36,052 nt of DNA from Gammaproteobacteria bacterium (lineage in GTDB: Bacteria > Pseudomonadota > Gammaproteobacteria > Thiohalospirales > Thiohalospiraceae). This document shows, one piece after another, positions 28,740-35,349 of this stretch; the first letter of the stretch is position 1; the number at the start of each line of letters is the position of its first letter. Below the pieces are notes generated by a model. It made no database searches. It was not told the origin of the DNA and saw nothing but the letters and a program-made list of their open reading frames with translations. The DNA is taken from NCBI GenBank assembly GCA_015491735.1, contig WFVH01000079.1, positions 1-36,052 of the forward strand, read 5' to 3'. The position numbers and the translations under genes were made by a program.

Positions 28740-28977
28740 TACGACGCCAACGACAATATCATCGATGGTAGTGAGCAGCTCACGCTCCCCGCTGGTAAGC
28801 CGGGCTGCCAGACGCTTCCTCCTTGAATTCCCGCTTCCAACGGTGCAGCAGGTTGTCCCCCATATCCAGACTCCGCGCCGCTTCAGACACCTTGTAGCCT
28901 CGCTCGGTCACCAGCACCACCGATTCCCGCTTGAAATCCTCTGTATGTTTCCTTCCCGGTTGTTTCTCTGTTGTCAT
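28740..28977 (-). pseudogene. IS3-family transposase OrfA remnant
   Basis: On the minus strand the frame begins MTTEKQPGRKHTEDFKRESVVLVTERGYKVSEAARSLDMG... and continues LLHRWKREFKEEASGS, the helix-turn-helix region of IS3-type OrfA. The frame then breaks: the reading continues in another frame as ARLTSGERELL. The C-terminal half, including the leucine zipper, and OrfB are missing. A decayed fragment with no likely activity. Confidence 0.8.
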
Positions 28978-29586: not shown

Positions 29587-30972
29587 ATGCTTGACCAAAC
29601 GAGTCGTTATACCAATCTGGATCTCAAGGAGGAAGACCTTATCGCCAGCGGTAATTGGGTTCTGGGCGCATATAAGATGAAGCCGAAGCCCGGTTTCTTT
29701 GACTACATCGGTACTGCCGCCCATTTCTGTGCAGAGTCTTCCACCGGGACCAACGTACAGGTAGTAACCACCGACGACTTTACCCGGAACCTGGACGCCA
29801 TCTGCTACTTCGTCGATGAAGACAAGGAGCTGATGAAGATCGCCTACCCGGTCGAGCTGTTCGATCGCAACATCACCGACGGCCGCGCCATGGTGGTCTC
29901 CATGATGACCCTGATGATCGGTAACAACCAGGGTATGGGCGATGTGGAATACGCCAAGCTGCTTGACTTCTATGTACCACCTCGCTTCCTGCGGCTGTTC
30001 GATGGCCCCTCGATGAATATCGTTGATATGTGGCGTATTCTGGGCCGTGATCTCGACAACGGCGGCATGGTGGTGGGCACCATTATTAAACCGAAGCTGG
30101 GTCTGCGTTCCCAACCGTTTGCCGATGCCTGCTACCAGTTCTGGCTCGGTGGCGATTTCATCAAGAACGATGAGCCCCAGGGCAACCAGGTCTATGCACC
30201 GATGCGCGAAATCACTCCGCTGGTCGCTGACGCAATGAAGCGCGCCATGGATGAAACCGGCCAGCCGAAACTGTTCTCTGCCAACATCACCGCTGACGAC
30301 CCGTTTGAGATGATCGCCCGCGGCGAATACATCCTGGAGACCTTTGGCGAGCACGCCGAGAATGTCGCCTTCCTGGTAGACGGCTATGTTGGTGGCTGTG
30401 GCATGGTTACCTTGGCGCGCCGCTACTTCCCGAAACAGTTCCTGCACTATCACCGCGCGGGGCATGGCGCAGTCACCTCGGAGCAGTCCGACCGCGGTTA
30501 CACCGCGCTGGTACACATGAAATGGGCGCGTATGTCGGGCGCTTCCGGCATCCACGTCGGCACCATGGGTTATGGCAAAATGGAGGGGTATGCCAGTGAC
30601 AAGGTCAACGCCCTGATGCTGGTGGATGACGATGTGGACGGTGATTATTTCCACCAGAACTGGGGCAAGATGAAATCCTGTACGCCGATCATCTCCGGTG
30701 GCATGAACGCCCTGCGTCTGCCCGGCTTCTTCGACAACCTGGGCCACTGCAACGTTATCCAGACCTCCGGTGGCGGCGCCCTTGGCCACAAGGACGGCAT
30801 TGTTGCCGGAGCCACCTCCCTGCGTCAGGCGGTAAGCGCGTGGCAGGAGGGGACGAATCTGATCGATTACGCCAAGGAGCACGGGGAGCTGCGTGGCGCC
30901 TTCGAGAGCTTCCCGGAGGATGCCGATAAGCTCTTCCCCGGCTGGCGCGAGAAGCTGGGGGTACACAAGTAA
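29587..30972 (+). CDS. cbbM: Form II ribulose-1,5-bisphosphate carboxylase/oxygenase
   Basis: A 461-residue form II RuBisCO large chain, the usual length. It carboxylates RuBP in the Calvin cycle and works as a large-subunit-only oligomer; no cbbS follows. Active-site features: [11 protein letters not shown] with Lys168, [10 protein letters not shown] with the carbamylated Lys193 and the Mg-binding Asp195/Glu196, [10 protein letters not shown], and [13 protein letters not shown] near the phosphate site. Numbering is offset by two from the Rhodospirillum rubrum enzyme. AAGGAG precedes the ATG. Form II enzymes have low CO2/O2 selectivity, which fits a low-oxygen or CO2-rich niche such as that of sulfur oxidisers. 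It is the first gene of the operon. Confidence 0.98.
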
Positions 30973-31093: not shown

Positions 31094-31897
31094 ATGACAG
31101 ATGGAGAGCAATACCTGATCAAAGAGGAACCCTTCTACCAAACCACCGGTAACGAGGTGGCCCTCTATGAGTCCGCCTACAACCGCCGTCTCCCGGTCAT
31201 GGTCAAGGGGCCCACCGGCTGCGGAAAATCACGTTTCATTGAGTACATGGCATGGAAGCTGCGGAAACCGCTGATCACAGTCGCCTGTAACGAAGATATG
31301 ACTGCTGCCGACCTGGTGGGACGCTTCCTGCTCGACGAGAATGGCACCCGCTGGCAGGACGGCCCACTAACGGTAGCAGCCCGCCTCGGTGCCATCTGCT
31401 ATCTCGACGAGGTGGTCGAGGCGCGCCAGGACACCACGGTGGTGATCCATCCGCTCACCGATCACCGCCGGGTACTGCCACTGGACAAGAAAGGCGAACT
31501 GCTGGAGGCCCATCCCGACTTTCAGTTGGTAATCTCCTATAACCCCGGCTACCAGAGCTTGATGAAGGATCTGAAACAGTCCACCAAACAGCGCTTCACC
31601 GCACTGGACTTCGACTATCCGGCCAAGGCCGAAGAGGCGCGTATCGTCGCCCACGAAGGAAAGGTGGATGCAGCAATGGCTGAACACCTGGTGGATATCG
31701 CCCACCGCGCCCGCAACCTCAAGGGCCACGGTCTCGACGAGGGGATCTCCACCCGGTTGCTGGTCTATGCTGCACAACTGATCGACGATGGTATCGGACC
31801 GGTCGAGGCCTGCAAAATGGCACTGGTACGTCCCATAACCGACGATCCCGATATCCGCGCTACCCTGGATGCAGCGGTCGAAATGATCCTCGCTTGA
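31094..31897 (+). CDS. cbbQ: RuBisCO activase AAA+ ATPase CbbQ
   Basis: A 267-residue MoxR-type AAA+ ATPase. Walker A is GPTGCGKS (39-46), Walker B AICYLDEVVEA (Asp104, Glu105), and sensor-type residues follow in VISYNPGYQ, with ALDFDYPAKAEE and a C-terminal helical lid (STRLLVYAAQLI). With CbbO it removes inhibitory sugar phosphates from RuBisCO; the form II-associated pair is known as Q2/O2. It starts at 31094 with a weak ribosome site, and cbbO follows after 25 bases. Confidence 0.95.
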   Translation: MTDGEQYLIKEEPFYQTTGNEVALYESAYNRRLPVMVKGPTGCGKSRFIEYMAWKLRKPLITVACNEDMTAADLVGRFLLDENGTRWQDGPLTVAARLGAICYLDEVVEARQDTTVVIHPLTDHRRVLPLDKKGELLEAHPDFQLVISYNPGYQSLMKDLKQSTKQRFTALDFDYPAKAEEARIVAHEGKVDAAMAEHLVDIAHRARNLKGHGLDEGISTRLLVYAAQLIDDGIGPVEACKMALVRPITDDPDIRATLDAAVEMILA

Positions 31898-31922: not shown

Positions 31923-34142
31923 ATGAATCCGGAAACTCAAGCCTGGCGGGATCGGCTCCAGTGCAGCGTCCGCAAAATCGATGATATCTTTGAAGACGCA
32001 CTGAACCGCGCCAGAGAGCTGCTTTCCCCGGAGGGGCTGGATGCCTGGCTGGAGAATGCCGACCGCGTCTGCGGTCTGGGGCGCGGTACCGAACTGGTGC
32101 TGATCTTCCTTGACGAGATCCCGGAGGTGGTGAGCCACAGTGACGAGGCGATTATCCCCGAAGTTGCCGCCACCTGCGCACTGCTCTCCGAGTATGCCGC
32201 CGGCAAGGCGATCAACCCGTTTCTCTCCACCCTGCCCGCCGTGGCACGCCGCCTTGGCAGCGCCGCCCTGCTGCGTAGCTGGCTGCGGTTGATAGAGCGG
32301 ATGGCCAAAGAGGCAAAGGAAGGCACCCAGCTACTGGCCGAACGTGCACCCTACCTGTTCAACCAGCTCAGCATGGCCGGGGTGGAGAACTGGATCAACT
32401 ACGGCATCCGCGTCTACCGCGATCACCCCCACCGTCTGCCCGACTATTTCAGCCTGCAGAGCGCCGACGCCAAGGCGATGCTGATCAAGGAGCGCAACGG
32501 CACGCTGTTCATGGATCATGAACGCCAGCTACGGCTGTTCGAACGCGCCCTGTGGGATCTGGAAACCGACTTCTGCCCCTACTCGGAAGCGTTCGACTCC
32601 CTGCGCAAGCCGCGCCCTCACCTGGATCGGCTTGGTATCCATCTGCCGGACGTGTATGAGGATCTGGGTCCGGTTACCGGCATCAACCGTTACCGGGCGG
32701 CAATCGCCCACATGATGGCGCACAAAATCTGGTCACAGCCCTACCTGGCCGACAATTTCAGCACCTTCCAGCATCTCTGTATCGAGGTATTCGAAGATGC
32801 CCGGGTCGAACATCTGGCGATGCAGCAGTATCCCGGATTACGGCGGCTGTGGCTGTCGATGCATCCGAAACCCAAGCCGGGTAGCTGCCCGGAAGGCTGG
32901 TCCTGCATTCGTCATAAACTGGCGATGCTCTCCTACGCCCTGCTGAACCCGGAACACGACTACAGCGGCCAAAGCCTGCTGGAGTACGAAGCAAAATTCC
33001 GCGCCCGGATCGAGGAGGACCCTTTCGATCCTTCGCTCAGCACCGACCTGGGAGTCCACTGGCTGAAAGACAATGACGAGCACGACTTCCGTAGACCCAA
33101 AATCTGGTTTGAGGATACCGAAGTCAGCTATCGCGACGACAACCGCTACCTGTGGATCTTTCTGGAGGACGTGGAGAATGAAGATGACTTCCACTCCGAT
33201 CACGGTGCAGCCGACCGTGGCCAGGGGGCGGACGAGGACGAACTGCTGCCACCTCAGCACTACCCCGAGTGGGATCAATCGGTACAGAACTACCGTCCCG
33301 ACTGGGTTACCGTCTATGAGGCGATTCAGTCACCGGGCGATGCCGGCCATATCGACCGCCTGCTGGAAAAACACAAGCGCCTGGCCAAACAGCTAAAACA
33401 GATCGTCGATCTGCTCAAGCCCCAGCAGCGGCGCCGCGTGCGTTACCAGGAAGAGGGAGATGAACTGGATCTGGATGTAGCAATCCGCGCCGCCATCGAA
33501 TATCGCATTGGCTCGACCCCCGATACCCGTATCCATCAGAGCCACGTCAAGGATGGCCGTGACATCGCCGTTCTGCTGCTTCTCGATCTATCGGAGTCCA
33601 TCAACGAGACACCACAGGGTGCCGACGCCACCATTCTGCAACTGAGCCAGGAGGCGGTTTCGTTACTGGCCACTGCAGTGGAGGCGCTCGGTGATCCGTT
33701 TGCCATATCCGGGTTTTCGTCCAATACCCGCCATGAAGTCCGTTATGCTCACTTCAAGGGGTTCAACGAACACTGGGGAGATGAGCCCAAGGGACGTCTG
33801 GCGGCAATGGAAGCGGGACATTCGACGCGAATGGGCGCAGCCCTGCGCCACGCCGGACGCTATCTCGAACAACGGCGCGAGGAGAAACGGCTGTTGCTGG
33901 TACTCACTGACGGCGAGCCCTACGATATAGATGTCCAGGATCCAAAATATCTGCAGGAAGATACCCACATGGCAGTAAACGAGCTGGACAGCAAAGGAGT
34001 CACCACCTACTGTATCAGCCTCGATCCCCACGCCGACGACTATGTTGCCGACATTTTTGGTCGCAACAACTACACCGTCATCGACCGGGTGGAACGGCTG
34101 CCGGAAAAGCTTCCGCGGCTGTTCATGAGTTTGACGAAATAG
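31923..34142 (+). CDS. cbbO: RuBisCO activase partner CbbO (VWA protein)
   Basis: A 739-residue protein with a helical N-terminal part (about 1-530) and a von Willebrand A domain at the C-terminus. The metal-ion site begins at DLSES (555-559) after AVLLLL and continues with SGFSSNTRHEV and VLTDGEPYDIDV. It is the substrate-recognition partner of CbbQ: its VWA domain is thought to dock on RuBisCO while the ATPase remodels the active site. Length and neighbours fit CbbO. The aldolase follows after 19 bases. Confidence 0.94.
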   Translation: MNPETQAWRDRLQCSVRKIDDIFEDALNRARELLSPEGLDAWLENADRVCGLGRGTELVLIFLDEIPEVVSHSDEAIIPEVAATCALLSEYAAGKAINPFLSTLPAVARRLGSAALLRSWLRLIERMAKEAKEGTQLLAERAPYLFNQLSMAGVENWINYGIRVYRDHPHRLPDYFSLQSADAKAMLIKERNGTLFMDHERQLRLFERALWDLETDFCPYSEAFDSLRKPRPHLDRLGIHLPDVYEDLGPVTGINRYRAAIAHMMAHKIWSQPYLADNFSTFQHLCIEVFEDARVEHLAMQQYPGLRRLWLSMHPKPKPGSCPEGWSCIRHKLAMLSYALLNPEHDYSGQSLLEYEAKFRARIEEDPFDPSLSTDLGVHWLKDNDEHDFRRPKIWFEDTEVSYRDDNRYLWIFLEDVENEDDFHSDHGAADRGQGADEDELLPPQHYPEWDQSVQNYRPDWVTVYEAIQSPGDAGHIDRLLEKHKRLAKQLKQIVDLLKPQQRRRVRYQEEGDELDLDVAIRAAIEYRIGSTPDTRIHQSHVKDGRDIAVLLLLDLSESINETPQGADATILQLSQEAVSLLATAVEALGDPFAISGFSSNTRHEVRYAHFKGFNEHWGDEPKGRLAAMEAGHSTRMGAALRHAGRYLEQRREEKRLLLVLTDGEPYDIDVQDPKYLQEDTHMAVNELDSKGVTTYCISLDPHADDYVADIFGRNNYTVIDRVERLPEKLPRLFMSLTK

Positions 34143-34161: not shown

Positions 34162-35349
34162 ATGCCCATCGTCAACATGAAGGATATGCTCCAGCATGCC
34201 TACCACCATGGCTATGCGATAGGGGCCTTCGATCTGGTAAGCCTGGATTTTCTGGAAGGGATAGTACTGGCTGCAGAGCGGGCCCGCGCCCCGGTAATCC
34301 TGAGCCTGGCCGAATCCCACTTCGAATATTTTGATTTCGAGACAATCATGCCTGCAGTCGAGGCAGCGGCAAAACGGGCCACCATACCGGTAGCCATCCA
34401 TCTGGATCACGGCGCCACACTCGACTCGGCCCGGCGCGCCATCAACCTCGGGTGTAACGGGGTCATGGTGGACGCCTCACAACTCCCCCTGCCCGACAAC
34501 ATCGAAGCCACCCGCAAGATCGTGGAGATGGCGAAGGGATGTGGGGTGCCGGTGGAGGGCGAGCTGGGATACGTTCCCGGTGTCGAAGGTGAGGATGCCG
34601 AACGCCACCCGGGAGAAATCAGCTACACCACACCGGCAGAGGCCAGGGCCTACGTGGAGCGCACCGGCGTGGATTTTCTTGCCGTCTCCATCGGTACGGT
34701 GCATGGCCGCATGAAGGGCAAGCCAAAACTGGATTTCCCGCGCCTGAAGCAGATCAATGAAACCCTGAATATCCCGCTGGTAATACACGGTGGCACCGGA
34801 CTATCCGATGATCAGTTTCGGCGACTGATTTCCAAAGGGGTAGCCAAGATCAACTACTACACCGCACTGTCAGACGCAGCCGCAACACAGATCAGGGAGA
34901 ACAGCAGGACGGAAACATCCTCCGGCTACACCGGCCTGGTGAAAGATGTCCGCGGCGCCATCGCTGCCGAGGTGGAACGCTGCATGCACCTGTGGGGAGC
35001 AGCGGGACGGGCAGCCGAAGTACTGGCCCAGTGTCAGCCCTGGCTGCCGGTGGAACATCTGATTATCTACAATGTCGAAGGGCTGGACAGAGCAGCAGCA
35101 GAGAAGATGATGGCCAAAGGCCGCGAGGTGCTCTCCGCCATTCCCGGAGTACGCGCAGTGTTTACCGGGGAGGCGGTGCAGGAGGATGCCAGGTATCGCT
35201 ATACCTGGCTGGTACGCTTCTGTCACCCGGATGTGATCGACAGCTACCGTGAACATCCAGACCATGTAGCTTTTGCCGACAACCTGTTCCGTCCGGTCGC
35301 CGGGGGACGGATCAGCATCGACTATCTGGCGGTGGAGTCCAAACAATGA
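34162..35349 (+). CDS. Class II fructose/sedoheptulose-bisphosphate aldolase with C-terminal Dabb-like domain
   Basis: A 395-residue protein. Residues 1 to about 290 are a class II zinc aldolase: HLDHG (His80, Asp82, His83), GELGYVPGVEGED, HGRMKG (His181) and IHGGTGL (His209), with INYYTALSDA for phosphate binding. It condenses DHAP with glyceraldehyde-3-phosphate or erythrose-4-phosphate in the Calvin cycle. Residues about 298-392 read as a Dabb (stress-responsive A/B barrel) domain: HLIIYNVEG, TWLVRF, SYREHPDHVAFADNLFRPV, ISIDYLAVE. That fusion is unusual for the family; the domain usually makes dimeric barrels. GAAAGGAAAA precedes the ATG. It overlaps cbbY by 4 bases (ATGA). Confidence 0.9.
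   Translation: MPIVNMKDMLQHAYHHGYAIGAFDLVSLDFLEGIVLAAERARAPVILSLAESHFEYFDFETIMPAVEAAAKRATIPVAIHLDHGATLDSARRAINLGCNGVMVDASQLPLPDNIEATRKIVEMAKGCGVPVEGELGYVPGVEGEDAERHPGEISYTTPAEARAYVERTGVDFLAVSIGTVHGRMKGKPKLDFPRLKQINETLNIPLVIHGGTGLSDDQFRRLISKGVAKINYYTALSDAAATQIRENSRTETSSGYTGLVKDVRGAIAAEVERCMHLWGAAGRAAEVLAQCQPWLPVEHLIIYNVEGLDRAAAEKMMAKGREVLSAIPGVRAVFTGEAVQEDARYRYTWLVRFCHPDVIDSYREHPDHVAFADNLFRPVAGGRISIDYLAVESKQ

Follow-up and report, generated by a model that had tools for sequence, protein, structure and literature searches.

The window, by which we mean the whole stretch of 36,052 nucleotides that was analysed, ends in a Rubisco operon. Five genes follow one another in the order cbbM, cbbQ, cbbO, a gene encoding a class II aldolase fused to a Dabb domain, and cbbY (Table 1). 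The form of cbbM was assigned from its approximately 30% identity to form I proteins encoded at other loci. CbbY is established as a xylulose-1,5-bisphosphate phosphatase. A gap of 19 bases separates cbbO from the fused gene, whose stop overlaps the start of cbbY as ATGA, and the end of the contig falls inside or just past cbbY. The short spacing and the overlap make translational coupling likely. Upstream of cbbM, at 28780-28977 on the reverse strand, a short ORF resembles by eye the remnant of an IS3-type transposase.

Table 1. Genes of the Rubisco operon in the window and domains of the fused gene
Feature	Position	Strand	Basis
cbbM, form II Rubisco	29587..30972	+	Pfam PF00016/PF02788
cbbQ, AAA+ Rubisco activase subunit	31094..31897	+	CbbQ_C 116 bits
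cbbO, VWA-domain activase partner	31923..34142	+	VWA match, homology, gene order
Fused gene, class II aldolase and Dabb, 395 aa	34162..35349	+	ORF, sequence, Pfam
Class II aldolase domain (PF01116), residues 4-283, with Asp82, His83, His181, His209	34171..35010	+	Pfam, residue alignment
Dabb domain (dimeric alpha+beta barrel fold), residues 298-395; Pfam match 309-388	35053..35346	+	Sequence, Pfam, model, Foldseek
cbbY, xylulose-1,5-bisphosphate phosphatase, runs to contig end	35346..36050	+	E 1.6e-58 to solved CbbY 4uar

The original prediction of a full class II aldolase core followed by a Dabb barrel at residues 298-392 was borne out, including the coordinates given for it. F_bP_aldolase (PF01116) is matched with 295 bits (E 7e-88), and Foldseek aligns the full-length fold with class II aldolases. 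Dabb (PF07876) is matched in the whole protein with E 2e-9, and for the isolated tail (35053-35349) the score is 41.7 bits (E 1.9e-10), where the gathering cut-off is 25 bits; this is the single Dabb match in the source genome. The stretch SYREHPDHVAFADNLFRPV, which had been cited as typical of Dabb, holds the HPxH motif of the family. Among solved Dabb proteins the tail sequence matches 3bde (E 1.2e-6) and olivetolic acid cyclase (E 1.8e-4).

The AlphaFold model of the whole protein has two confident domains (pLDDT 86, pTM 0.87). Modelled alone, the Dabb domain reaches pLDDT 90 and has the order strand-helix-strand-strand-helix-helix-strand. Foldseek matches this monomer model to the Mesorhizobium Dabb protein 3bde (TM 0.83-0.86, E 1e-9), and the ferredoxin-like fold of a Dabb monomer is shared with olivetolic acid cyclase as well. 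Both of these are small stand-alone proteins, unlike the fused Dabb. His299, Tyr362 and His368 of the fused protein align with His5, Tyr72 and His78 of the cyclase, a correspondence that implies no activity here. A chance or artefactual match to Dabb is ruled out by the profile score, the sequence matches to solved Dabb proteins and Foldseek. Relatives in other genomes rule out a frame error or a fusion private to the source genome.

Short exact patterns scanned against the genomes of 84,980 species returned 20 loci. The 18 that span both domains come from Gammaproteobacteria, including relatives of Gallionella and Thiohalobacter, plus one labelled Hyphomicrobiales; L019 ends at a contig edge and L021 is an unfused aldolase. 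With a two-domain model (E <= 1e-120), 48 of 369 sampled Gammaproteobacteria genomes were counted as carriers, nearly all with both domains and a few cut by contig ends. A sample of the whole phylum added four carriers outside Gammaproteobacteria, and in the class of one of these the fusion was present in 2 of 240 genomes. The next-best matches of that sample were unfused aldolases of one family (f183, enterobacterial by resemblance), falling to 285 bits. In a plasmid search, none of the places among the matches listed covered the whole fusion.

In a tree of the aldolase domain all 64 fused proteins form one clade (support 100/100), with the nearest unfused aldolases distant. The tree holds few unfused rows, some on long branches, which leaves the exact sister group unsure. 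The nearest unfused relatives are enterobacterial PRK06801-type aldolases and perhaps YdjI, by a weakly supported join. The Dabb tail is present in those clade members whose C-terminus lies on the contig, and because all fused proteins form a single clade the tail is a regular part of the subfamily. The Dabb domain is real and, as had been said, none of the canonical class II aldolases compared has it, but judged from these sequences it is normal for a conserved aldolase subfamily and ordinary there, which is one of the outcomes named beforehand as refuting the original reading.

The fusion itself is already listed in a table of 2010, in which CbbA of the A. ferrooxidans cbb1 operon (ACK80290.1, AFE_1676) has PF01116 and PF07876 and cbbA of the cbb3 operon has the aldolase domain only (PMC2942843). 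This CbbA shares with the window gene the two Pfam domains and the place after cbbQ-cbbO, but it lies in a form IA carboxysome operon whereas the window gene lies in a form II operon. RT-PCR was used in support of co-transcription of cbb1, with primers listed from cbbO1 to cbbA. In the portions of that paper covered here, CbbA is named an FBP aldolase and the extra domain passes without comment. Searches of the literature, in which subscription journals are thinly covered, returned nothing relevant on Dabb together with aldolase, nor any paper discussing the features described below (the Rubisco/activase association, the altered substrate site and a clade without a Zn ligand).

Gene order and co-occurrence both lend good support to a link between the fused gene and Rubisco. 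A Rubisco large-chain match is found in 47 of the 48 carriers vs 129 of 321 non-carriers among the 369 Gammaproteobacteria genomes (Fisher p 6e-16, uncorrected for kinship), at a cut-off (E 1e-40) that may take in Rubisco-like proteins. Surroundings were read for 53 copies, and 30 of these lie close to Rubisco, activase or carboxysome genes; approximately 40% show none of these in the surroundings read, which in some cases reach a nearby contig end. Eighteen of the 30 belong to form I operons and lie downstream of cbbO (cbbL-cbbS-cbbQ-cbbO-fusion), in some cases separated from it by at least one other gene. Seven others follow cbbX, a different activase type, in red-type operons, and the remaining Rubisco-linked copies are in alpha-carboxysome loci or beside cbbM. 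That the fusion tracks form II operons is ruled out, as most operonic copies stand with form I (CbbQO or CbbX). From its placement behind cbbO and cbbX, in carboxysome loci and near cbbM, the fusion follows Rubisco and its activase rather than form II.

Other conserved genes were seen at these loci. A protein of approximately 125 aa without a Pfam match (L006:5493-5894 and relatives, 24 proteins at 22 loci) typically separates the fused gene from cbbO or cbbX. Another of approximately 104 aa, also without a Pfam match (L006:1931-2254 and relatives, 19 proteins at 18 loci), is typically between cbbS and cbbQ. At the carboxysome loci L010 (7345-8544), L083 and L090 a BMC-domain protein and a NUDIX hydrolase are encoded close to the fused gene.

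Taken as annotated, the gene would encode a plain second Calvin-cycle FBP/SBP aldolase (CbbA), with Dabb as an accessory dimerisation domain. The annotation and the co-transcription support from A. ferrooxidans (PMC2942843) agree with this, as do the best-scoring solved relatives, which are class IIB FBP aldolases, and the Zn ligands and catalytic Asp (D82, H83, H181, H209), which are intact in the window protein. Three copies that come immediately after the canonical fba of a tkt-gap-pgk cluster also agree; these same copies argue that the fused gene is not replacing the canonical aldolase. However, the source genome already has a canonical class II aldolase on contig 95, clustered with transketolase, GAPDH, a probable phosphoglycerate kinase and a probable pyruvate kinase, which rules out the fused gene as the sole FBP aldolase. 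The NCBIfam model for FBP aldolase, TIGR01859, reaches 256.8 bits where 343 are needed, and other FBP-aldolase equivalogs are also below cut-off; the sole model passed is the broad cbbA ketose-bisphosphate subfamily TIGR00167.

The substrate site differs too. The canonical FBP/TBP aldolases (FbaA, KbaY and the genome's own Fba on contig 95) have the same TIM barrel and the same Asp82, His83, His181 and His209, but they are about 285-360 aa long, end without a Dabb tail and carry Asn24 and Asp or Ala at position 233. KbaY and the genome's own Fba have Arg at position 257, which we take to be the distal (6-)phosphate-binding residue of FBP/TBP class II aldolases. The window protein has Thr there, and Arg is kept in only 5 of 68 fused members. 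Its loss is common to the PRK06801-type relatives and E. coli YdjI, which have the class II fold of the fused protein but no Dabb domain and Asn at position 24; the neighbours of ydjI are genes for sugar use. Ala50, Glu51 and Tyr233 are common to the fused protein and the PRK06801-type. Glu51 was ruled out as a fusion-specific change, since it is also found in class IIB FBP aldolases, e.g. B. methanolicus FBA-C (PMC8119897).

All 67 fused members that were scored carry Asp or Glu at position 24 (Asp in the window protein), where the unfused aldolases of the residue alignment and tree set all have Asn. Asn24 is not invariant beyond the fused clade, as SqiA (8q57) has Ser. With Arg257 missing and Asn24 changed, it is unsafe to assume FBP as the substrate. 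The protein stands outside FBP aldolase proper (Fba/CbbA) both by the 6-phosphate Arg and by the equivalog cut-off, and YdjI, perhaps among its nearest relatives by the weak join noted above, is not an FBP aldolase. We consider a plain second FBP/SBP aldolase unlikely.

The catalytic D-H-H-H set is complete in 52 of the 68 scorable fused members; the 16 others include L020, whose N-terminus is misread. Eight of the fused proteins form one clade in which Gln or Arg replaces His181 and Val replaces Glu132, and seven of the eight are located behind cbbO. Further, apparently separate losses of catalytic residues occur elsewhere (L016/L017, L060, L115, L118, L121, L113). Aldolase-domain pN/pS is 0.12-0.31 in the altered clade vs 0.05-0.26 in intact members, rates that are rough because dS is near saturation. 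Gene decay is an unlikely cause of the Zn-ligand loss, as purifying selection persists. An H. pylori aldolase changed to Gln at the same position (H180Q) was crystallised holding FBP, according to the structure title (5ud3). Either the metal site would tolerate Gln, or the gene may be kept for something besides turnover. In three genomes with two copies, L066/L122 (G067), L059/L060 (G122) and L058/L121 (G001), an intact copy is paired with one whose catalytic residues are altered; G067 has the altered one in its Rubisco operon.

Since the clade without the Zn ligand is still conserved, and mostly in the operon, catalysis may not be the point. The aldolase fold could then serve Rubisco or its activase as a scaffold or as a module that binds sugar phosphates, with catalysis dispensable. 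The slow evolution of the altered aldolase domain, about equal to that of intact members, the separate losses elsewhere and the H. pylori variant are in line with this, but most members, including the window protein, keep the whole catalytic set, and the metal might still be held by Gln. The roughness of the rates also weighs against a binding module, as does the Dabb tail, whose evolution outpaces that of the aldolase domain in most pairs compared. We regard such a module as improbable. Somewhat more doubtful still is a Rubisco-activase accessory in which a Dabb-dimerised sugar-phosphate-binding fold would capture or dispose of inhibitors released by CbbQO or CbbX, one lineage having dispensed with catalysis.

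We tentatively favour, at rather less than even confidence, a subfamily of class II ketose-1-phosphate aldolases that is associated with Rubisco, acquired its C-terminal Dabb domain in a single event and kept it, and has a sugar-phosphate role on the Rubisco side. The Zn-dependent site of most members, including the window protein, would cleave a ketose-1-phosphate to DHAP and an aldehyde. This substrate would probably be a sugar phosphate made or released at Rubisco, and not the FBP of the canonical enzyme. Working alongside the activase and CbbY, the enzyme would have a role in metabolite repair or inhibitor disposal. The Dabb domain most likely dimerises, adding a second subunit interface or a binding pocket, and the protein may contact Rubisco or the activase.

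DHAP aldolases make pentulose phosphates such as xylulose-1,5-bisphosphate, so cleavage of this compound is chemically plausible. The missing 6-phosphate Arg, as read from the alignment, nevertheless speaks against a bisphosphate substrate such as xylulose-1,5-bisphosphate, which would otherwise be the obvious Rubisco inhibitor, and that compound is already removed by CbbY, encoded next door. The conservation of the clade without His181 and the copies away from Rubisco in the stretch read also count against the ketose-1-phosphate aldolase that we favour.

Rubisco is slowed by the sugar phosphates of its own misfires, and CbbY, CbbQO and CbbX are known answers. What deserves attention in the fused aldolases is the strong association with Rubisco and its activases, together with the alterations at the substrate site and a conserved clade that lacks a Zn ligand. 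A conserved and widespread aldolase that lies beside two different activases, and has been filed as a routine FBP aldolase, would be a candidate for a further player. Genes called cbbA in such Rubisco operons may be misannotated.
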